A stretch of DNA of 59,399 nt from an uncultured Candidatus Pelagibacter sp. (lineage in GTDB: Bacteria > Pseudomonadota > Alphaproteobacteria > Pelagibacterales > Pelagibacteraceae). Positions 28,896-39,633 of the stretch are shown in pieces. The translations under genes were made by a program, and so were the position numbers. The number at the start of each line of letters is the position of its first letter. Positions within the stretch are counted from its first letter, which is position 1. The stretch is from positions 1 to 59,399 of the forward strand of contig CAJQRZ010000046.1 of assembly GCA_905612435.1 (NCBI GenBank). The letters are read 5' to 3'. The notes under the pieces are model-generated. The model was not told the DNA's origin. It saw only the letters and a program-made list of their open reading frames with translations, and ran no database searches.

Positions 28896-31558
28896 TGAAA
28901 AAACTTATTTTAAATTTTAAATCAAAGGAATCGAAAAAGTTAAAAAACCCAAAAGATTTTCTTGGAGGAAAAGGTACAAACCTTTCGCAAATGGGAAGAA
29001 TGGGTTTGCCAGTTCCTCCTGGATTCACTATTTCAACTAATGTTTGCAAATTGTTTTATCAGAATAAAAAAAAAATAAATTTTAAGATATTAAATTCTAT
29101 TAAGAAAGAATTAAAAGCTATTGAAAAAGAATCTAATAAAAAATTTGGAGATTTAAAAAACCCTCTATTAGTATCTGTAAGATCGGGAGCAAGAGTATCA
29201 ATGCCAGGTATGATGGATACAATTTTAAACCTAGGTTTAAATGATAAAACTGTTTTAGCATTAGCTAAAAAAACTTCAAATATGAGATTTGCTAAGGATA
29301 GTTACAGAAGGTTTATTCAAATGTATAGCAATGTTGTTATGGGTGTAGAAAACTATAATTTTGAGGAATTAATTGAAAATTATAAATTAACAAAAGGTGT
29401 TTTGTTAGATACCGACCTAAATGAAAATGATTGGGATGGGTTAATTAATGACTTTAAAAAAATTGTAAAAGAAAAAACAAAAAAAATTTTTCCACAAAAT
29501 GTTTTTGATCAATTAAATGGGGCTATTAGTGCTGTATTTTTATCTTGGGAGAGTAATAGAGCAAAAGTTTACAGGAAATTAAATCAAATTCCTTCAGATT
29601 GGGGCACTGCAGTTAATGTTCAAACAATGGTTTTTGGTAATATGGGAAATGATTGTGCGACTGGTGTCGTGTTTACAAGAAATCCTTCAGATGGAACAAA
29701 TGAAATTTATGGAGAATATTTAATTAATGCTCAAGGTGAAGACGTTGTAGCTGGAACACGAACGCCTCAATATATAACTAAAAAAGCTAGAAGAGATGCA
29801 AAAGCAAAAGAACTTTCAATGGAAGAAACAATGCCAAAAGTATTTAAACAATTAGATAAAATTTTAATGATTTTAGAAAAATATTATAAAGATATGCAAG
29901 ATGTAGAGTTTACAGTTGAGAACAAAAAATTATGGATGCTGCAAACTAGAGTCGGAAAGAGAACTTCAAAGTCTGCAGTTAAGATTGCAGTTGATATGGT
30001 TAAAGAAAAACTTATATCAAAAAAAGAAGCTGTATTAAGAATAGATCCAAATTCTTTAGATACATTGTTACACCCAACATTAGACGAGAGAAGTACAATA
30101 AATGTTATAGCAAGTGGACTACCAGCCTCACCAGGGGCAGCGTGTGGTAAGGTTGTTTTTTCTTCAGATGAGGCCGAAAGGTTAAATAGCATGATGCAAG
30201 ATACAATTTTAGTTAGAGTGGAAACTTCACCTGAGGATATCCATGGAATGCATGCAGCCAAAGGAATTTTAACTGCAAGAGGTGGAATGACAAGTCATGC
30301 AGCTGTTGTTGCAAGGGGAATGGGGAGACCTTGTGTTTCAGGATCGAGCGAAATAGATATTAATTATGAAGTCAAAACTTTTAAAACCTCATCTATAGAA
30401 GTTAAAGAAGGAGATATAATTACAATAGATGGCTCATCAGGTAGAATTATTTTAGGGGAAGTGCCAACAGTTAAACCTGAAATTTCTGGAGATTTTTCAA
30501 AATTAATGAGTTGGGCTGATGGATTTAGAAAATTAAAAGTAAGAACAAATTCTGAAACACCACTTGATGCAAAAACAGCAAGAGATTTCGGTGCTGAAGG
30601 CATAGGTCTTTGTAGAACAGAACATATGTTTTTTGATGAAGAAAGAATTTTATCAGTTAGAGAAATGATTTTATCAAAAACAAAAGAAGATAGAAATAAA
30701 GCATTAGAAAAACTTTTACCTCATCAAAGAAAAGATTTTTTAGAGATATTTAAAATCATGAACGGTTTACCAGTAACGGTAAGATTATTAGATCCACCAT
30801 TGCATGAGTTTCTTCCTAAAACAGAAAAAGAAATAAATGATGTAGCAGAAGTTGTGGGTTTACCTATAAAAGAAATTAATTCAAGAATTAATGAATTACA
30901 TGAGCAAAACCCTATGTTAGGGCACAGAGGATGTAGATTAGGAATTTCATTTCCAGAAATTTATGAAATGCAATGCAGGGCTATTTTTGAAGCCTTATCA
31001 GAACTTAAAAAAAACAAAATAAAATCAGCATTTCCAGAAATTATGATTCCATTAGTGTCTACAGAAGCCGAAATAAGAATAATGAAAGATTTAGTAGTAA
31101 GAGTTGCCAACCAAGTTCAAAAAGATAAAAAAATTGAAATTGATTATATAGTTGGAACTATGATTGAGCTGCCAAGAGCAGCTTTAAAAGCAAGAGATAT
31201 AGCAAAACATGCAGAATTTTTTAGCTTTGGAACTAACGATTTAACGCAAACAACTTTTGGAATAAGTCGAGATGATAGTGGCAAGTTTTTAAATGATTAT
31301 ATAGAAAATAAAATATTTTCGGTTGATCCATTTATTTCAATTGATGATGGTGTATGTGATTTAATTGAAATTGCAGTAAAAAAAAGCAGAAAGCAAAATA
31401 AAAAAATTAAGCTTGGAATTTGTGGAGAACATGGTGGTGATCCAAAGAGTATCAAATTTTTTTCAGATGCAGGTTTGGATTACGTTTCATGTTCACCTTA
31501 TAGAGTTCCAGTTGCAAGATTAGCTGCTGCACAATCAGAATTATCTAAAAAAAATTAA
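28895..31558 (+). CDS. ppdK: Pyruvate, phosphate dikinase PpdK
   Basis: 887 residues from a GTG start that shares one base with the glyS stop. The N-terminal ATP-grasp domain starts GGKGTNLSQMGRMGLPVPPGF and has VSVRSGARVSMPGMMDTILN. The swivelling phosphohistidine domain has GGMTSHAAVVARGMGRPC (H468). The C-terminal PEP/pyruvate barrel has EGIGLCRTEHMFF and LGICGEHGGDP. It interconverts pyruvate, ATP and phosphate with PEP, AMP and pyrophosphate. The last 4 bases overlap nadC on the opposite strand. Confidence 0.97.
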   Translation: MKKLILNFKSKESKKLKNPKDFLGGKGTNLSQMGRMGLPVPPGFTISTNVCKLFYQNKKKINFKILNSIKKELKAIEKESNKKFGDLKNPLLVSVRSGARVSMPGMMDTILNLGLNDKTVLALAKKTSNMRFAKDSYRRFIQMYSNVVMGVENYNFEELIENYKLTKGVLLDTDLNENDWDGLINDFKKIVKEKTKKIFPQNVFDQLNGAISAVFLSWESNRAKVYRKLNQIPSDWGTAVNVQTMVFGNMGNDCATGVVFTRNPSDGTNEIYGEYLINAQGEDVVAGTRTPQYITKKARRDAKAKELSMEETMPKVFKQLDKILMILEKYYKDMQDVEFTVENKKLWMLQTRVGKRTSKSAVKIAVDMVKEKLISKKEAVLRIDPNSLDTLLHPTLDERSTINVIASGLPASPGAACGKVVFSSDEAERLNSMMQDTILVRVETSPEDIHGMHAAKGILTARGGMTSHAAVVARGMGRPCVSGSSEIDINYEVKTFKTSSIEVKEGDIITIDGSSGRIILGEVPTVKPEISGDFSKLMSWADGFRKLKVRTNSETPLDAKTARDFGAEGIGLCRTEHMFFDEERILSVREMILSKTKEDRNKALEKLLPHQRKDFLEIFKIMNGLPVTVRLLDPPLHEFLPKTEKEINDVAEVVGLPIKEINSRINELHEQNPMLGHRGCRLGISFPEIYEMQCRAIFEALSELKKNKIKSAFPEIMIPLVSTEAEIRIMKDLVVRVANQVQKDKKIEIDYIVGTMIELPRAALKARDIAKHAEFFSFGTNDLTQTTFGISRDDSGKFLNDYIENKIFSVDPFISIDDGVCDLIEIAVKKSRKQNKKIKLGICGEHGGDPKSIKFFSDAGLDYVSCSPYRVPVARLAAAQSELSKKN

Positions 31559-32393: not shown

Positions 32394-33383
32394 TTATCTG
32401 CCAATTGCAGTCATTCTTTCAACAGATATTCTTGCCTTGTTTATAGTTTCTGTATCCATAATTATTTCACCAGTTTCATTTTCTAAACAGTCTAAGATTT
32501 TAGGAAGTGTAATTCGTTTCATGTGCGGACAAAGATTACATGGTCTGATAAATTCTACATTTGGGTTTTCTACTTGAATATTGTCGCTCATTGAACACTC
32601 GGTAACCATCATCACTTTTTTAGGTTGGTTGTCTTCAACATATTTAATCATTCCAGAAGTTGATCCTGCAAAATCACTAGCTTTAATTACATCTGGTGGG
32701 CATTCTGGGTGTGCAATTATTTTTATACCAGGGTTATTTTTTCTAATATCATGAATTTCTTTTTCATTAAATTGATCATGAACTATACAAATTCCTTTCC
32801 AAGCAATAATTTCAATATCTGTTTGAGAAGCAACATATTTAGCTAAATAATCATCTGGTAAGAATATGACTTTTTTTACACCTAATGATTTTACAATTTT
32901 TACAGCATTTGCTGAAGTACAGCATATATCAGTTTCAGCTTTAACTTCAGCTGATGTGTTAACATATGACACGACAGGAACCCCTGGATATTTTTCTTTT
33001 AACAATCTCACATCTTTACCTGTAATAGAAGAAGATAAAGAGCATCCAGCCTGCATATCTGGTAATAAAACTTTTTTTTGAGGACTCATTAGTTTTGCAG
33101 TCTCTGCCATAAAGTGTACTCCAGCCATAACAATAATATCAGCTGAAGTTTTAGAAGCCTCAACTGCTAATGCTAAAGAGTCAGAAGAAAAATCTGCAAC
33201 TCCATGATAAATTTCAGGTGTTTGATAATTATGTGCGAGTATAACTGCATTTTTTTTTTTTTTTAATTGGTTAATTTTATGAATGTAAGGAGCGTGAACT
33301 GCCCATTCAATTTCAGGCAATACTTTTGAAATTTTTTTATATATATGGTCGGTTGTTTTTTTTATTTCTTGGTTAAATTCCAT
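32394..33383 (-). CDS. nadA: Quinolinate synthase NadA
   Basis: 329 residues from the ATG at 33383 (a TTG five codons earlier is less likely). It includes ILAHNYQTPEIYHGVADF-type substrate residues, VMAGVHFMAETAKLMSP, PDMQAGCSLSSS, YVNTSAEVKAETDICCTSANAV, HPECPPDV and the C-terminal RPCNLCPHMKRI; cysteines in these motifs bind the 4Fe-4S cluster. It condenses iminoaspartate with DHAP. nadB, the usual middle gene, is not between nadA and nadC. Upstream lies the oldest tmRNA-like repeat. Confidence 0.95.
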   Translation of the reverse strand: MEFNQEIKKTTDHIYKKISKVLPEIEWAVHAPYIHKINQLKKKKNAVILAHNYQTPEIYHGVADFSSDSLALAVEASKTSADIIVMAGVHFMAETAKLMSPQKKVLLPDMQAGCSLSSSITGKDVRLLKEKYPGVPVVSYVNTSAEVKAETDICCTSANAVKIVKSLGVKKVIFLPDDYLAKYVASQTDIEIIAWKGICIVHDQFNEKEIHDIRKNNPGIKIIAHPECPPDVIKASDFAGSTSGMIKYVEDNQPKKVMMVTECSMSDNIQVENPNVEFIRPCNLCPHMKRITLPKILDCLENETGEIIMDTETINKARISVERMTAIGR

Positions 33384-33478
33384 ATCAAAACCTATCAACT
33401 ACATAGTATTTTGTCATTTTATTATTCGACGCATAAGTATTTTTTTACTATCATTTTTCAAAAATTTTACGATTTAAT

Positions 33479-33511
33479 GGGGCGTTCTGTTATTTGATGT
33501 CTAGACTGTAT
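33479..33511 (+). repeat. Degenerate tmRNA 3'-end repeat, copy D
   Basis: It begins GGGGCGTTCTGTTA, 14 bases identical to the 3' end of the ssrA coding piece (complement strand), then diverges but keeps TG, C and AGAC-GT positions. It lies in the 229-base gap between nadA and the radical SAM gene, in the same orientation as the other three copies. It is the outermost boundary of the repeat chain that starts at ssrA. Confidence 0.65.
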
Positions 33512-33611
33512 AGATTTTATAGAATGAATGGATAAATGTGCTATATTTAAGAGATCTTCTTATAAGTTTAATGACACTTCCGTATGATAATTTTTAGTAT
33601 ATAGTAATTTT

Positions 33612-35252
33612 ATGAAAGATATAAATGTCGTAATTATAGGTCTTTATACATATTTTAATGTTCCAGTCAGAATATTGCATCCTGTAGCAGATAGAATTGA
33701 AGGAGTAAAAGCACACACATTATTTTATAAAAATTACGATTCAAATCTTTTTAGCCTTCCAACGGAAATAGAAGAAAATTTTTTAATAGACACTATTGAA
33801 AAATTAAAACCTAGTGTTGTGGCCATTAGCTTGCTATCTCCTTATGTATTAATTGCAAAAAGAATAACCGAGTTAGTTAAAAAACACACAGGTGCTGTTG
33901 TTGTTTGGGGAGGTGTTGGACCAACGATTACTCCAGAAGAGCATATTAAACTAACGGATGTAATATGCCTAGGAGAAGGAGAGAGAGCCTTTGAAGAATT
34001 AATTGTAGCCGTAAGAGATGGAAAAGATTATTCAAATATAAAAAATTTATGGGTTAATAAAGGGTCAGAAATTATAAAAAACCCTCAAGGACCATTAGTA
34101 CAAGAATTGGATCTTTTACCTTTTGCAGAATATGGCAATGAAAATATGTATTTTATAGAGTTAAATAAAATGACAAGAGAAGATCCTGAGCTTGACCATA
34201 ATGTTCTATATTTACAATCTACACGTGGATGTCCTTATAGTTGCTCTTTTTGTGTTGAAACTATGTATCATGATATTTATAAAGGCTTAGGAAAATTTGT
34301 AAGAAGAAGGTCAGTAGACAGTATAGTAAAAGAAGTTAATTTACATTTAAATAGACCTGGTAATAAAAAAAAACGAATTTATTTTATTGATGAAGTCTTT
34401 GGATCTGCACCAGGGTTTATTGAGGAGTTTTCAAATAGATGGCCAAAAGAAGTTGGTTTAGGGTTTGATGTTTTGTATCACCCAAAATCTTTAAAAGTAA
34501 AAACAATAGAAAAACTTGCTTCAGCAGGTGTACTTGAAATAAATTTTGGAGTTCAAACTGGATCAGACAAAATTAGAAATGATGTATTCACAAGACCTGG
34601 TACAAATGAAGAGATTATTGAGCTTACAAATGAAATAAGTAAATTCAATATAAAGATAAGATATGATTTAATTTTAGACAACGATTTTGAAACAAAAGAA
34701 ACTTTAAAAGAATGTTTAAGCTTAATAATGAGATTACCAAAACCAGTTATTTTTAACACCTTTTCACTTCAACATTTCCCAGATTACCCAATGACTAAAT
34801 TAGCCATTGAAGCAGGCCATATTACTGAAGACGAACTGGATGATTGGCCCACAATGATGAAAAGAACTACAGAAAACTGGAAATTTATACCAAGGTGGAA
34901 AAAAAGAGAAAAAACAAAAACAAAACAAATTCAAAGACTTAACAACCTTATATGGATGATGTGTTGGAATCATGCAACGGATAAACAAATAAAATATGCT
35001 GTATTTAGCAAATCTATTTTTTCAAAAATATTATTTCATTATTTAAATATTAAATCAGTACTTCTTTGGTCAATTTGGGGTGAGGGTGGTTTTTTACATA
35101 TGGCAAGTTTTAGATTAAGATTTTTAACTTACCCATTAGCTGCAATAAAATTAATTTTAAAGGGAGATTGGAATCAATTATCAGAAAAATTGATAAGTAA
35201 AGGAATGAAGCCTTTTACAAGATATTTAAATTCAAGGAATGTTGGAAGTTGA
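33612..35252 (+). CDS. B12-binding-domain radical SAM protein, function unknown
   Basis: 546 residues. An N-terminal cobalamin-binding-like Rossmann domain (about 1-140; VVVWGGVGPTITPEEH, VICLGEGERAFEEL) precedes a radical SAM barrel with C207, C211 and C214 in RGCPYSCSFC, followed by the FIDEVFG and GVQTGSDKIRND motifs. The layout is that of BchE/MiaB-like methyltransferases or cyclases. The histidine that binds cobalt in true B12 enzymes (DxHxxG) is not evident, so the N-terminal domain may not bind cobalamin. The C-terminal 150 residues are basic and not recognised. It lies alone on the plus strand inside the tmRNA repeat chain. Confidence 0.85.
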   Translation: MKDINVVIIGLYTYFNVPVRILHPVADRIEGVKAHTLFYKNYDSNLFSLPTEIEENFLIDTIEKLKPSVVAISLLSPYVLIAKRITELVKKHTGAVVVWGGVGPTITPEEHIKLTDVICLGEGERAFEELIVAVRDGKDYSNIKNLWVNKGSEIIKNPQGPLVQELDLLPFAEYGNENMYFIELNKMTREDPELDHNVLYLQSTRGCPYSCSFCVETMYHDIYKGLGKFVRRRSVDSIVKEVNLHLNRPGNKKKRIYFIDEVFGSAPGFIEEFSNRWPKEVGLGFDVLYHPKSLKVKTIEKLASAGVLEINFGVQTGSDKIRNDVFTRPGTNEEIIELTNEISKFNIKIRYDLILDNDFETKETLKECLSLIMRLPKPVIFNTFSLQHFPDYPMTKLAIEAGHITEDELDDWPTMMKRTTENWKFIPRWKKREKTKTKQIQRLNNLIWMMCWNHATDKQIKYAVFSKSIFSKILFHYLNIKSVLLWSIWGEGGFLHMASFRLRFLTYPLAAIKLILKGDWNQLSEKLISKGMKPFTRYLNSRNVGS

Positions 35253-35260
35253 AAATTATT

Positions 35261-36442
35261 TTAAGCGTATTGTCCAGCTACAAAACCAGATGACCATGCC
35301 CATTGAAAGTTATAGCCACCTAAGTGACCAGTAACATCCACTACCTCTCCAATAAAAAATAAACCAGGATTTTTTATTGACATCATTGTTTTAGAAGAAA
35401 TCTCATTAGTATCTATACCACCTAAGGTAACTTCAGCTGTTCTATACCCCTCAGATCCAGTTGGACTGATGATCCAAGTATTTATAGAATTGCTTAATTG
35501 TTTTAATAGTTTATTTGATAATTCAGATATATTACCTCTAACATCATTATCTTTGCAGATCATATAAGCCAGTCTTTTTGGAAGAATTTCTGAAATTATA
35601 ATATTTATATCTTGTTTAGGATTTGAGTTTTTTTTACTTCCTAAAAGTTTAAAAATATCTTGTTTTGGTGAAAGGTTAATTTTAATACTATCTCCTGATT
35701 TCCAGTAGGATGAAATTTGCAATATAGAAGGTCCACTTAAACCTCTATGAGTAAATAACATTCCCTCTTCAAAAAAAATCTTATTAAAAGAAACAACTGT
35801 TTCTAAAGATAATCCACTAAGGTTCTGACACATAGCGAGTATTTTCTCATCAAAAGTCAAGGGTACTAAAGCTGGCAATGTTTCAATAATATTTAAATTG
35901 AATTTTTTAGCTATTTCGTACCCAAATTTACTTGCTCCAATTTTAGGAACAGATAGACCTCCTGTTGCGATAATTAATGAATCACAAAAGTATTTATCAG
36001 AGCTAACAGTAATAAAGTATTGATTATCTTGCTTATCAATATCTGTAATAATTATTTCTTTTTTTAAAGTGACGTTTGCTATTTGACATTCTAAAAGTAG
36101 CATATCTACAATTTGTTGTGCACTTTCATCACAAAAAAGTTGTCCTAACTTTTTTTCATGAAATTTAATATTATGTTTTTTTATTAAATTTATAAAATCA
36201 TTTTGAGTGTATTGATTTAAGGCAGATATTATAAACTTTGGATTTCTTGAAATAAATTTACTTGGATGTGTATTGATGTTGGTAAAATTACATCTACCAC
36301 CTCCTGATATGCGAATTTTTTCACCTATTTTTTTTGAATGATCAACTAAAAGTACTTTTCTTCCTCTTTTACCAGCTTCAATGGCACTCATTAGGCCAGC
36401 TGCACCAGCACCAATTATAATAACGTCATATTTTTCTGTCAT
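35261..36442 (-). CDS. HI0933/YhiN-family FAD-dependent oxidoreductase
   Basis: 393 residues. An FAD dinucleotide-binding loop DVIIIGAGAAGLMSAIEAGKRG at the N-terminus is followed by the family mark GEKIRISGGGRCNFTN and a C-terminal GLFFIGEVVDVTGHLGGYNFQWAWSSG. Members are often annotated as aminoacetone oxidases, but the substrate is not known for most. It is followed on the same strand, upstream, by slyX 16 bases away. Convergent with the radical SAM gene across 8 bases. Confidence 0.92.
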   Translation of the reverse strand: MTEKYDVIIIGAGAAGLMSAIEAGKRGRKVLLVDHSKKIGEKIRISGGGRCNFTNINTHPSKFISRNPKFIISALNQYTQNDFINLIKKHNIKFHEKKLGQLFCDESAQQIVDMLLLECQIANVTLKKEIIITDIDKQDNQYFITVSSDKYFCDSLIIATGGLSVPKIGASKFGYEIAKKFNLNIIETLPALVPLTFDEKILAMCQNLSGLSLETVVSFNKIFFEEGMLFTHRGLSGPSILQISSYWKSGDSIKINLSPKQDIFKLLGSKKNSNPKQDINIIISEILPKRLAYMICKDNDVRGNISELSNKLLKQLSNSINTWIISPTGSEGYRTAEVTLGGIDTNEISSKTMMSIKNPGLFFIGEVVDVTGHLGGYNFQWAWSSGFVAGQYA

Positions 36443-36458
36443 GAATTAATTATAAGAA

Positions 36459-36665
36459 TTAGTAATGTGGTGGTTTTTTATCTTCTTTGACAATATTTGA
36501 TTCAATTCCACTATCTAGCTCTTCAATTCTTTTATTAAAATTTGAAATTTTTTTTTTTAAATGAATGATTTCTTTTTGTTGGGAATAAAGCTCATCACTT
36601 ATTTGAGATATTTCATGTTGAAGAAAAGTAATCTGTTCTTCTAGTTTTTTAATCAAATTTTCCAT
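36459..36665 (-). CDS. slyX: SlyX-family small coiled-coil protein
   Basis: 68 residues from the ATG at 36665. The protein is a heptad-like coiled coil (LIKKLEEQITFLQHEISQIS) and ends in PPHY, the C-terminal signature of SlyX. Function is unknown in all bacteria. A frame extending to 36695 would add ten residues encoded by the tmRNA-like repeat copy C, so the shorter start is preferred. Probably cotranscribed with the HI0933-type gene. Confidence 0.85.
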   Translation of the reverse strand: MENLIKKLEEQITFLQHEISQISDELYSQQKEIIHLKKKISNFNKRIEELDSGIESNIVKEDKKPPHY

Positions 36666-36672
36666 ATTAAAA

Positions 36673-36703
36673 GGTGTTCTGTTATTCAGTGCCAAAGCTT
36701 TGT
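36673..36703 (+). repeat. Degenerate tmRNA 3'-end repeat, copy C
   Basis: GGTGTTCTGTTATTCAGTGCC matches the ssrA 3' end at most positions (GG-GTTCTGTTA---C-GTGCC), then AAAG. Same orientation as copies A, B and D. It lies directly upstream of the slyX start and marks the boundary between the slyX compartment and the single methyltransferase gene. Confidence 0.6.
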
Positions 36704-36757
36704 AGCATTATTCATGAATAAATTAAATTAAAATCAGCAAGAAATGTTAGAAGAAGA

Positions 36758-37447
36758 TTATTTTTTAATTACTAATATTAAATTAGAAGTAAAAAAAAGA
36801 AACTTAAATGATATTATTTTATAATTTATAATTTTTAAAATTATCATTATTTTATGAAGTTCTTTTTTGTTTAGTAAATTTAAGTTTTCTTCTAATGAAT
36901 AAAAATCTAATCCCAAAAATTTTAATATTTTTCTGTGTATTTTTTTAGGCAACCAATGAAAAAAAGGTAATTTTGTATGAAAATCAATCGGGTAATGTTT
37001 ATTTGGAGTAGTTATAAAAACATAGTTTTTACTTACTCTATATAGTTCTTCAATTAATTTGATTTGATTTTTAAAACAACCTACATGTTCAATTGTTGCC
37101 GAACAGTACACTGTATCATATAAGTTATTTTTTAAATCAATATTTGTACCACTACCATGGATAAATTTTCTTACATGAGAATGTTTTTCACTAATCAATT
37201 TTGTTAAATCTTGATCTGACAGACAGTCAATATTTTTATTATTTTTGGTTTTTTGCAATAGTATATTATGATTATCATCAAATGTGTTTGACATGCCAAC
37301 ATCTAAAATAGGAGTATCGCTATTATAAATTGTACTTGTTAAAAATATTTGATGAATTTTTTCTCTATTATATTTTAATAATTTTTTTAAAAATTTATCA
37401 ATTAAAAATATTTCTTTCCAATATGTTTTTTTTTCTGAATACATCAT
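36758..37447 (-). CDS. SAM-dependent methyltransferase (class I), substrate unknown
   Basis: 229 residues. Motif I is degenerate (ILDVGMSNTFDDN), with the acidic residue of the adenine-binding strand probably in NNKNIDCLSDQDL and the post-motif YDTVYCSATIEHVGCFKNQIKLI typical of Methyltransf_11 proteins. ELYRVSKNYVFITTPNKHYPIDFHT fits the methyltransferases seen in glycan or lipid clusters. It is the only gene between repeat copies C and B. No methylation target can be read from the sequence. Very AT-rich (long A/T runs). Confidence 0.75.
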   Translation of the reverse strand: MMYSEKKTYWKEIFLIDKFLKKLLKYNREKIHQIFLTSTIYNSDTPILDVGMSNTFDDNHNILLQKTKNNKNIDCLSDQDLTKLISEKHSHVRKFIHGSGTNIDLKNNLYDTVYCSATIEHVGCFKNQIKLIEELYRVSKNYVFITTPNKHYPIDFHTKLPFFHWLPKKIHRKILKFLGLDFYSLEENLNLLNKKELHKIMIILKIINYKIISFKFLFFTSNLILVIKK

Positions 37448-37465
37448 AATTATTTTTTCTTTATA

Positions 37466-37508
37466 GGGGCGTTCTGTTACCCGGTGCCCCAGACCGTGCT
37501 TCTATAAT
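37466..37508 (+). repeat. tmRNA 3'-end repeat, copy B (near-perfect)
   Basis: Forty-two of 43 bases are identical to 39326-39368, the 3' end of the ssrA coding piece; the only difference is C at 37502 against A at 39362. It begins GGGGCGTTCTGTTACCCGG. It lies 1,860 bases from the functional copy with one gene between. This is the arrangement left by site-specific integration at a tmRNA gene. Confidence 0.9.
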
Positions 37509-37560
37509 CCTTATTTATCAACAAAGTTGAAATACTAGAGGGTATAAAATTACCTAAAAT

Positions 37561-37580
37561 CCCGACACTAGCCCGACAAA
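37561..37580 (+). repeat. Inner repeat of the ssrA-proximal element, left copy
   Basis: Seventeen of 20 positions match 39251-39270, ending in a shared 11-base AGCCCGACAAA (37570-37580). It lies about 53 bases inside repeat B; the partner lies about 55 bases inside repeat A. Symmetric placement suggests recombinase arm-type binding sites; that is inference. Confidence 0.55.
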
Positions 37581-37588
37581 TCAATCTT

Positions 37589-39193
37589 TCAATTTATCTC
37601 GAACAAATTCTGTTGGAGTTCACTTATAGACGTGTCAGCAGTTTCAAAAGCTAGAGTGATAGGAATTTTTGGCATTACACCATTTAGAAGCTCTTCAATT
37701 GAGATACATTGTACTTTCTGATAGTTTTTCCCTAAAGCTTTTAATAAACCCATTTTTGTTGCAGCTTGTATCATGGTTGATTTAGGTTTTTCTAATGTAA
37801 CTAAGATTCCACTATTAGCATTATTTTTTTTTATAGCTCCATATAGCTCATCTACCATAGTTACTGAAATATTTTTACCAGATTTAATTGAAACAATTCC
37901 CTTTTTATAAATATAGCCTTTGCTATCTTTTCCTTCTATGATCCAGTAAGTTCCGTCAACTCCATTATCGCTCCCTTTAACTGGGTTATTTCTCACTCCA
38001 GGTATTAAACTATTTGCCCAGTATTGAAACTCATAATAAAGTTTTGGATTTTTTTCACTGAAATCTCTTAATTTAATTGCAGAACTTAAATTTGTTGGAA
38101 TTCCATTGCTTTTAAATTTTACTTTAGGAAAGCTATTAAGTAACCTTTTCTTGACTAGACCGGTAGCCAAATGCGTTATATCGATTCCTATCCATTTTCT
38201 TTTCAGTTTCTCTGCGGCATGTATTGTTGTACCACACCCACAGAATGGATCTAAAACAACATCATTTTCTTTTGAGGACGCATTAATAATTCTCTCTAAA
38301 AGTTTTATAGGTTTTTGTGTTGGATATCCTAAATCTTCTGATCCTTGAACAAAATGGATATCTTTCCAAAGACTTTGAAGGGGTATTCCTTCTCTTTCAT
38401 CAAGAAAAAGCTTTCTATTAGCCAAACCTTTCGAAGTATAATGTAGTTTATTTTCTTTATGTAATTTTTCCATTACTTTTTTTGGAACTCTCCAAAGATG
38501 ATATCTATTATTCCATTCATATTCATAACCACCCCCACTTAAACTTTTTGCATCAAGTGGTCCCAATCTATATTTACGTCCATCATCTACATGTGTATAA
38601 TGACTTTTTATATAATCATCACTCAATGGAGTAAATTGCTTATTCCATGTTGATTTGTTTGATTTGGTATAAAAGAGTATTCTATCAGTATTATTTCCAT
38701 ACCTCTTTGCATCGTTATGAGGATGTGATCTTTCCCATATAATCTCGTTTCTAAAATTTTTATTACCAATTACTGTATCCATAATCATTTTTAGATAATG
38801 GCTTGCAGTAGGATCACAATGTAAGTAAATTGAACCATCTTTTTTTAATTTTTTGTTTAAAAAATAAATTCTTATCGACATATTTGTTAAATATGCCATC
38901 ATGTCACTTTCACCCATTATATCTCTAAAAGATCTTAAACAAGTGTACAAATTCTTATCTTCAAGATTCCCAAGTTCTTCAAAAACTTTTTCGTCATCAT
39001 CTCCCCATGACCAGGTATCTAAAAAAGCTTCGACTTGAGAATTTTCTTTATCTTTATCAGGAGTTTTATAAAGGATGTTATAAACTTTTTTACTATTAAA
39101 AGGAGGATCTAAATATATTAGATCAACAGATTCATCATTAATTATTTTTGACTTAAGGATATTTAAATTATCACCAAAAATTAATTGATTCAC
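37589..39193 (-). CDS. Site-specific DNA methyltransferase (N4/N6) with C-terminal nuclease-like domain
   Basis: 534 residues from a GTG start (39193). The catalytic motif IV is DLIYLDPPFNS (DPPF 29-32), followed by TPTQKPIKLLERII-type motif X and the SAM-binding motif I DPFCGCGTT (317-323); this order is the beta class. The C-terminal part (about 400-500) has GVDG (D413) and VSIKSGK (K437), resembling the PD-(D/E)xK-like domain fused to many methylases, though the middle acidic residue is serine here. It may modify DNA as an orphan or act as a fused restriction-modification protein. It is the only gene between repeats A and B, so it is likely mobile cargo. Confidence 0.88.
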   Translation of the reverse strand: MNQLIFGDNLNILKSKIINDESVDLIYLDPPFNSKKVYNILYKTPDKDKENSQVEAFLDTWSWGDDDEKVFEELGNLEDKNLYTCLRSFRDIMGESDMMAYLTNMSIRIYFLNKKLKKDGSIYLHCDPTASHYLKMIMDTVIGNKNFRNEIIWERSHPHNDAKRYGNNTDRILFYTKSNKSTWNKQFTPLSDDYIKSHYTHVDDGRKYRLGPLDAKSLSGGGYEYEWNNRYHLWRVPKKVMEKLHKENKLHYTSKGLANRKLFLDEREGIPLQSLWKDIHFVQGSEDLGYPTQKPIKLLERIINASSKENDVVLDPFCGCGTTIHAAEKLKRKWIGIDITHLATGLVKKRLLNSFPKVKFKSNGIPTNLSSAIKLRDFSEKNPKLYYEFQYWANSLIPGVRNNPVKGSDNGVDGTYWIIEGKDSKGYIYKKGIVSIKSGKNISVTMVDELYGAIKKNNANSGILVTLEKPKSTMIQAATKMGLLKALGKNYQKVQCISIEELLNGVMPKIPITLAFETADTSISELQQNLFEIN

Positions 39194-39250
39194 AATTTTT
39201 AAACTTTATATATTTTATGTCTTTTGGCTACAAAACTCTTACTCTCTAAT

Positions 39251-39270
39251 TCCGCCACCAGCCCGACAAA
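39251..39270 (+). repeat. Inner repeat of the ssrA-proximal element, right copy
   Basis: Partner of 37561-37580, same orientation, 17 of 20 positions identical, with AGCCCGACAAA at 39260-39270. It lies upstream of the methyltransferase start and about 55 bases from repeat A. Reverse-strand reading resembles the 5' end of a tRNA-Leu gene for about 12 bases, but no tRNA can be folded. Confidence 0.55.
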
Positions 39271-39325
39271 AAGTAATCTAAACGTTAATCAGCATTATAA
39301 ATAAAGAGAAGTAGGAGAGTGGTAA

Positions 39326-39368
39326 GGGGCGTTCTGTTACCCGGTGCCCCAGACCGTGCTTATATAAT
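39326..39368 (+). repeat. tmRNA 3'-end repeat, copy A (inside ssrA)
   Basis: This is the functional 3' end of the tmRNA coding piece and the reference copy for repeats B (42 of 43 identical), C and D (degenerate). On the minus strand GGGGC and GCCCC within it can pair, forming the terminal stem of the RNA. It is the presumed attachment site of the element chain. Confidence 0.85.
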
Positions 39369-39584
39369 TAACCTAAGTTAATTATGCAGCAATTGCGTAA
39401 CTTTCGTTAGCATTTAAAGTTTAGCCCGTTACGGTGGAACAATCCCGAACGAAAGAATAGCCTTTAGTCACCCGTCGATCCTATTTCACCCCCATAAGTA
39501 ATGATGGTGGAGGTGGTGGGTACTGCCCCCACGTCCGTAATGGTTATTACGAAATTCGTTTATCGTCGTAGTTGGAAAACCAAC
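39326..39584 (-). ncRNA. ssrA: tmRNA (ssrA), permuted two-piece form
   Basis: Read on the minus strand. The acceptor piece comes first: a T-arm GTGGG-GGCAGTA-CCCAC, then CACCTCC and ACCA with the CCA end at 39505-39507. After an 11-base spacer (39494-39504) the coding piece begins at 39493 with GGGGGTG, which pairs with CACCTCC (one G-U), followed by the conserved ATAGGATCGACGGGTGACTA-type start. The tag is encoded at 39411-39382 as ANESYAIAA followed by TAA. A perfect 9-base-pair hairpin (39364-39385) follows the stop. The end of the coding piece is near 39326. It rescues stalled ribosomes and tags the unfinished protein for proteolysis. Confidence 0.93.
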
Positions 39585-39590
39585 ATTTAT

Positions 39591-39619
39591 AGTATAATTA
39601 ATTAAATTTTAGTAAGCAA
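39591..39619 (-). promoter_or_regulatory. Promoter of ssrA
   Basis: On the minus strand, TTGCTT (39619-39614) and TATACT (39596-39591) are spaced by 17 bases, which would start transcription just before the acceptor piece. A perfect hairpin GTTGG-TTTT-CCAAC (39584-39571) lies at the start of the transcript. The -35 element ends only 14 bases from the plus-strand gene start at 39634. Confidence 0.7.
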
Positions 39620-39633
39620 TTAAATAAAGAGAT

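Follow-up and report, generated by a model that had tools for sequence, protein, structure and literature searches.

Genomic islands at the 3' end of ssrA, the gene for transfer-messenger RNA (tmRNA), are known from Dehalococcoides, where, in the passages of the report that deal with them, they occur in tandem, 16 of 31 carry an integration module, and the recombinase belongs to the serine family (PMC3146451). Here, we analyze the neighborhood of ssrA in a 59,399-nucleotide (nt) stretch, hereafter the window, which is contig C46 of a 1.1-Mb genome (73 contigs, 71.5% complete) of an uncultured Candidatus Pelagibacter of the SAR11 group. SAR11 cells rank among the most numerous in the sea, and their genomes are small and streamlined. 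Comparison within the genus suggests that the interval between nadA and ssrA probably consists of non-autonomous, site-specific cassettes that are recombined in trans by integrases of satellite-like elements. An earlier note on this DNA had interpreted the interval as a chain of gene cassettes or satellites moved in trans, and proved largely right. In the literature searched, with most subscription papers outside its scope, we found no account of a SAR11 ssrA cassette system, and a search for integrase-less single-gene elements returned nothing relevant.

The repeat that bounds the cassettes is the 13-nt core GGGGCGTTCTGTT, which together with a G+C-rich tail forms the 3' end of ssrA (ARAGORN: tmRNA* at 39291-39600 of the window, minus strand, tag ANESYAIAA). 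The core was found in 331 of 399 genomes of the same genus and in 57 of the 57 that are at least 90% complete, compared with one match to the reversed pattern across the 399 genomes. About 149 genomes (the table was read by hand) contain two or more copies, with a maximum of seven in genome G229; at the places listed, copies on one contig have a common direction and often lie 0.1 to 6 kb apart. These data point to a genus-wide repeat system with sites at ssrA and elsewhere; what the earlier note described at ssrA is present here, and is confined neither to that gene nor to this genome.

In the window, four copies (A to D; Table 1) share one orientation. A 27-nt matrix was derived from 79 distinct cores outside the window contig and scored against a background of 20 shuffled windows: A and B reach 47.5, D 24.8, and C 10.5; the top score in the shuffled windows is 8.9, and an unrelated site at 29742 reaches 10.6, level with C. 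In gapped alignments with 60 of the 204 core sequences (the core of locus L048 not among them), C scores 22.5 and the D segment 18.5, and three shuffled windows reach up to 19.5; the D segment does not exceed the shuffles, so that D rests on its exact 13-nt core and its position. Repeats A, B, and D are secure and C is probable, which upholds B as a near-copy of A and the common orientation in the earlier claim of four copies and leaves its third copy at a lower grade. Similarity falls with distance from ssrA in the window, as had been stated; we reject this gradient as a general rule because several arrays retain exact cores far from ssrA. The genome of the window contains two further exact cores, at C4:1307 (locus L004) and C53:225 (L358). 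Both appear to be additional cassette ends, the one on C53 with a different arm pair (see below), TGTCTGCT.

Relatives with a clean ssrA end, expected by the earlier note, exist: in genomes G028 (L036) and G001 (L041), which share the core variant of the window, the spacing between nadA and the core at ssrA is 60 and 62 nt, respectively, and no other core is present. In the window, D is followed by A after another 5.8 kb. Given the nadA spacing in the two relatives and D at 81 nt from nadA, the A-D stretch has the appearance of an insertion whose outer edge is D. The interval thus has the features of ssrA-specific genomic islands in the general sense, namely, flanking direct repeats of the ssrA 3' end and clean ssrA in relatives. 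Elsewhere, G028:C12 contains five cores and four units behind an SNase-family gene, and G074:C7 has the same flanking genes and a single core. At an empty ssrA site (L098), ppdK and the core are 9 nt apart; 5 of 13 ppdK-anchored arrays (L048, L127, L128, L137, and L198) have 9-17 nt between this gene and their outermost core. For nadA, the distance is 168-172 nt in three of five anchored arrays and 147-174 nt in 12 of 16 anchored loci without a further core (places fetched twice were counted once). The names SNase, PPDK, SelR/MsrB, Thy1, and pilin-type N-methylation, used here and below, come from a Pfam check on one member each.

The three compartments of the window contain one (A-B), one (B-C), and three genes (C-D: slyX, an HI0933-type oxidoreductase, and a B12/radical-SAM protein), as the earlier note had counted, and Pfam gave no integrase match for any of the five; the same Pfam comparison found no serine recombinase integration module among them. 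Across the genus, 116 core-to-core intervals (units) were collected from 62 loci, mostly chosen for several cores, with intervals of at least 7.5 kb excluded and near-duplicates retained (for example, L195/L201, 100% identical over 617 nt). All but one (115/116; the exception is L215) lack an A2-family tyrosine integrase. The integrase-less units have a median length of 815 nt (quartiles 538 and 1612), a single open reading frame (ORF) of at least 50 amino acids (aa) is present in 59 units, and 149 ORFs run in the direction of the core and 55 in the opposite direction. On the contigs giving multi-core arrays, no PF00589 match was found when contig numbers were compared by hand. One-gene cargos between the same repeats, another expectation of the earlier note, thus occur in arrays sampled from the genus.

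Part of these units combine constant ends with exchanged interiors. In 47 pairs, involving 29 units, both ends are alike (on average 97 nt with 83% identity at one end, 75 nt with 87% at the other) and the interiors unlike, under a 40-nt cut-off and with pairs containing a short unit dropped; in 150 additional pairs (37 units), the leader beside the outer core is the sole common part. The A-B unit in the window resembles cassettes in G142 (L037) and G028 (L035) at both ends, with unmatched interiors: its last 53-57 nt are 88-91% identical to theirs, the comparison with L037 gives 38 nt (89% identity) at one end and 53 nt (91%) at the other, and the constant end recurs nearly identically at C4 of the same genome. 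Units also occur in more than one context. A 400-nt stretch in L045 (G037, beside SelR/msrB), almost the whole interior of that unit, is 95-96% identical to parts of units in the ssrA arrays L128 (G382) and L217 (G131); at the own ssrA of G037, nadA is 151 nt off. Another unit, 85-93% identical among its copies, adjoins ssrA in G095 (L203) and G114 (L220) and lies one place outward in G295 (L127); L220 has no ARAGORN tmRNA call, and the 300 nt past its last core align to the ssrA of the window with a score of 210. Tail differences among the repeats seem to track cassette type.

Among the cargo, 138 of the 155 cassette ORFs with 90 aa or more were compared with Pfam; in 25 of 83 families listed, these 138 proteins include restriction-modification proteins, SHOCT (4), Adhesin_E (3), polysaccharide lyase (3), and trypsin-like (2) domains. 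Searches against PHROGs and PADLOC gave mainly unknown families, along with restriction-modification or mads matches. A signal-peptide-like N-terminus, called by an ad hoc rule of this analysis and not by SignalP, is present in 82 of 160 cassette ORFs compared with 135 of 531 ORFs in the flanks (p=2e-9 with related sequences kept). Two leader types recur, one MKKLLGIIVLGLLLSGNAYA-like and the other MKKLSLYIFLVLMFCNVGFA-like, and the start codon is 157-160 nt from the core in 18 of 49 cases scored. Many cassettes apparently encode exported proteins.

Inside each end of many units, a word of 6 to 10 nt occurs twice with 11-bp spacing; this arm word varies between units and often agrees across the two ends of one unit. 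Under a strict test (a common word no shorter than 9 nt and containing 4 or more G/C, applied to the 103 units that are 400 nt or longer, the 13 shorter ones dropped), a both-end arm word was found in 32 of 103 units, compared with 2.3% of swapped pairs and one case in the reverse-complement control. In the A-B unit, the second arm copy at the A end is identical to the B-end word CCCGACA. Arm-binding tyrosine integrases of the lambda and L5 types use paired direct repeats that flank a core, and an attP-like layout, with a core and arm-type repeats on both sides, is seen in A-B, in the 32 units, and in the integrase elements described next. The repeat on which the earlier note relied is thus no more than the core, and it is the paired arms and constant ends inside the units that are informative. 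Two gene-less units, L049 6312-6440 and L227 (126 nt), consist of cores 126-128 nt apart around an arm pair and are perhaps a minimal element.

Integrases were searched with PF00589 and three alignments (A1-A3). Five were placed at the ssrA core: L331 (AH-324-A02), L332 (AG-435-B08), L333 (AG-333-N19), L335 (AG-893-N07), and L337, the element of the last being truncated by the contig end; isolates with AG- and AH- names are presumably single-cell genomes. Three other named-genome matches (L334, L336, and L338) fall outside this set. In L331-L333, two cores 4.5 to 6.2 kb apart enclose genes for an integrase and for a protein of the primase or AAA type. As small elements with an integrase and a replication gene, these three resemble small phage satellites; the scan of helper proteins other than the integrase comprised seven from L331-L333 and one from L334. 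The L331 integrase is of the phage type (PF00589 tyrosine integrase; PHROG integrase). A related integrase family next to tRNA genes or their remnants has a like repeat pair directly upstream of the start codon, and its profile matched in 20 of 399 genomes, two of the matches (G161 and G242) beginning right at the ssrA core. The arms are shared with cassettes: the 18-nt arm pair of L332, GACGAGTACAGGACGAGT, is also present in the integrase-less cassette locus L143, and the L333/L335 arm type, TGACGCCAC, recurs in cassettes L209, L222, L229, and L230. In 15 of 102 cassettes (the 103 units used for the strict test minus L215), a 10-nt arm word recurs that belongs to one or another of the five ssrA integrases; for the seven tRNA-site integrases, the figure is three cassettes.

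These elements, the empty sites, and the other one-gene cargos between the same repeats support site-specific insertion at ssrA, units without a recombinase, and movement in trans, as the earlier note had it. They also bear on a rival explanation in which no site-specific recombinase acts and the repeats are a conserved hairpin or terminator, a dispersed repeat, or the product of homologous exchange or duplication at the ssrA end. Core and tail can indeed pair (GGGGC...GCCCC) and are located between convergent genes in an A+T-rich genome; such an origin is nevertheless very improbable in view of integrase elements bounded by the same core, clean empty sites, and matched arms inside the units. 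An integron, in which an IntI-type integrase acts on attC hairpins, deserves hardly any credence: the small same-direction arrays look integron-like, but the arm pairs, the exact 13-nt core inside ssrA, and the phage type of the L331 integrase argue against it, and a 2007 study, in the part bearing on SAR11 hypervariable regions, recorded no attC sites there (PMC2217521).

Candidate helpers of other kinds were rejected. The A1-family integrase at C39 of the window's own genome has different arms (TGTACTCACGCTCGTACTCA) and adjoins a tRNA-like remnant rather than ssrA, and prophage-type integrases at tRNA-Leu, tRNA-Thr, and tRNA-Asp/Val occupy other sites. Among the viral contigs searched for relatives of the ssrA integrases, just two passed, at 23% identity. 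The core itself is present in 16 viral contigs, eight of which (L316-L319, L322, L324, L327, and L330) have an ARAGORN tmRNA at the core, that is, a permuted ssrA of their own with the same core; we take these to be T4-like. The other eight, with a G+C content of 45-72%, look like chance matches. No cassette was seen beside the phage ssrA in the eight ssrA-bearing contigs. Cassettes could land at such a phage tmRNA gene; phage tmRNA as such was already on record in the portion of the literature consulted (PMC9004378).

Under the preferred reading, the nadA-ssrA stretch would be a small array of integrated cassettes, each bounded by the ssrA core and devoid of an integrase, with arms some 60-75 nt ahead of the core on the ssrA side and about 95-115 nt past the start of the outer core. 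A tyrosine integrase from a satellite-like element at the same site would read the arms and recognize the ssrA core in trans, joining a circular cassette to the core and, with a directionality factor, excising it. Insertion would regenerate the 3' end of ssrA, so that the tmRNA stays intact, and every insertion would add one core, so that arrays grow. In many cassettes, a common leader and signal peptide lie about equally far from the core, and new cargo would therefore come export-ready. The genome comparison directly shows the core and its arrays, the empty sites, units with constant ends around swapped interiors, the matching of arms, and integrase elements at the same site; from these we infer trans action, a circular form, a borrowed directionality factor, and cell-to-cell transfer. 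More tentatively, and with the odds somewhat against it, the system may form an integron-like economy without integrons. Cassettes would be expression-and-secretion vehicles in which core, arms, leader, and signal peptide are constant and the mature protein is exchangeable, the arm specificities of satellite integrases would act as channels, and ssrA-bearing marine phages might ferry the cassettes.

Several observations weigh against the trans-mobilization of cassettes. Mobility, with excision, circle formation, and transfer, is deduced from comparison, and the genomes compared are incomplete. The integrase test on the 116 units used one hidden Markov model (HMM), that of the A2 alignment, and the Pfam scan of the cargo extends to 25 of 83 families. 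No strict arm match was obtained for 71 of 103 units, some of which have another arm family and some no visible arms. No integrase with the exact CCCGACA arms of the window was found among the integrases examined, the nearest being L331, which shares AGCCCGAC, and the reverse-complement controls for arm sharing produced two matches apiece with L331 and L332, the other integrases giving none. Additional sequence lies past the outermost recognized core in 8 of 13 ppdK-anchored and two of five nadA-anchored arrays. In the window, the A-B unit does not count toward the 47 pairs because its B-end match of 36-38 nt is under the cut-off, and inspection of the unit ends revealed no clear arms in B-C and C-D.

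The last point, with the erosion of C and D, also favors a rival in which trans movement is over and the compartments are satellites that have lost their integrase, accreted in the manner of cis-mobilizable elements (CIMEs). Accretion is a known route to tandem structures in the passages on it in PMC5704250, the units have retained att sites and lack integration genes as CIMEs do, and C-D may be an old, decayed island instead of a cassette. For the system as a whole, we nevertheless regard this rival as unlikely. It is at odds with 115 integrase-less, mostly small units among 116, with 47 pairs in which both ends are conserved and the interiors differ, with one unit at two loci, and with the 32 of 103 units whose two ends have both kept their arms; constant arms and ends around replaced cargo make decay alone insufficient.

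Table 1. Features of the window around ssrA and nadA
Feature	Position	Strand	Support
ssrA, two-piece (permuted) tmRNA gene with the target site at its 3' end	39323..39623	-	Rfam RF01849, 222 bits
Repeat A, core within ssrA 3' end	39325..39368 (13-nt core 39326-39338)	+	alignment, matrix
Repeat B, outer end of A-B cassette	37465..37508	+	98% identical to A over 44 nt
Repeat C, probable degenerate core directly upstream of slyX	36668..36703	+	gapped alignment 22.5
Repeat D, exact 13-nt core; apparent outer boundary of whole insertion	33479..33511	+	81 nt past nadA end
Arm pair at A end, TCCGCCA / CCCGACA (second at 39262-39268)	39251..39268	+	11-bp period
Arm pair at B end, CCCGACA at 37561-37567 and 37572-37578	37561..37578	+	11-bp period
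Constant cassette end, arms to core	39269..39325	+	end comparison with other cassettes
A-B cargo, N6/N4 DNA methyltransferase, Mrr-like nuclease domain at the C-terminus	37589..39193	-	PF01555 1e-45, PF04471 2.4e-5
B-C cargo, methyltransferase-like protein	36758..37447	-	PF08241 1.2e-5
slyX	36459..36665	-	PF04102 1.7e-15; ATG start inferred at 36665
HI0933-type flavoprotein, accessory	35261..36442	-	Pfam and homologue search
B12-binding radical-SAM protein	33612..35252	+	PF04055, PF02310
nadA, flank of empty site	32394..33398	-	PF02445 9e-115

The methyltransferase encoded in A-B has PDB relatives in EcoP15I Mod and MboIIA; its gene reads away from ssrA and is unlike the exported type of cargo. 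For slyX, a longer ORF with a TTG start reaches 36695, and the 68-aa homologues in L342 and L343 begin at the Met of 36665. A close homologue of the HI0933-type flavoprotein is present in 4 of the 14 genomes searched, its own included, and has different gene neighbors in the other three. The possibility that the flavoprotein gene and slyX are old neighbors of ssrA was dropped as unsupported because the close homologues in G062, G142, and G155 adjoin other genes.

Three further loci in related genomes are of note. In L038 (10130-10570), the C-terminus of a cassette protein resembles, by eye, the C-terminus of ThyX, whose gene is near ssrA; this would fit the capture of a piece of a chromosomal gene. 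In G142, ten tandem related ORFs of about 110-210 aa lie beside cassettes (L037, 1458-8040). In G143, three tandem pilin-like genes, one of them checked (PF07963), are located between a core and msrB (L046, 8770-10479), another cassette locus.

Recombinase-free cassettes at the tmRNA gene would explain the turnover of single genes, many for apparently exported proteins and some for restriction-modification, and would provide a streamlined genome with integron-like gene swapping. The arm words predict which helper should match which cassette, and mobilization in trans by satellites is thereby directly testable.

Like integron cassettes, the SAR11 units form arrays of small, mostly same-direction elements with a common recombination site; unlike integrons, which as generally understood are defined by attI and attC, the site is the end of the tmRNA gene plus arm pairs, and the integrase is on separate satellite-like elements. 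With CIMEs and accretion islands, as far as the relevant passages of PMC5704250 describe them, they share tandem att sites without integration genes, but the SAR11 ends are constant and the cargo is exchanged, a pattern not predicted by decay. Additive flexible genomic islands likewise receive cassettes at a tRNA gene in marine bacteria; they reach more than 110 kb, and the passages concerned mention neither matched arms nor a helper in trans (PMC4119200, PMC10872708). Tycheposons, as generally known and in the part of PMC10872708 that treats them, are also tyrosine-recombinase elements with cargo at tRNA genes of streamlined marine bacteria, but they are large (4-200 kb) and carry their own recombinase, unlike the SAR11 cassettes. 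The Dehalococcoides ssrA islands, in the same passages as cited at the outset, resemble the SAR11 arrays in their tandem position downstream of ssrA, their bounds in repeats of its 3' end, and their variable cargo (PMC3146451). They depend on the serine recombinase DsiB and a six-gene module, with vcr islands of about 12 kb, whereas the SAR11 system combines a tyrosine integrase and arm-type sites with units of a median of 0.8 kb, 1 of 116 sampled units having an integrase.

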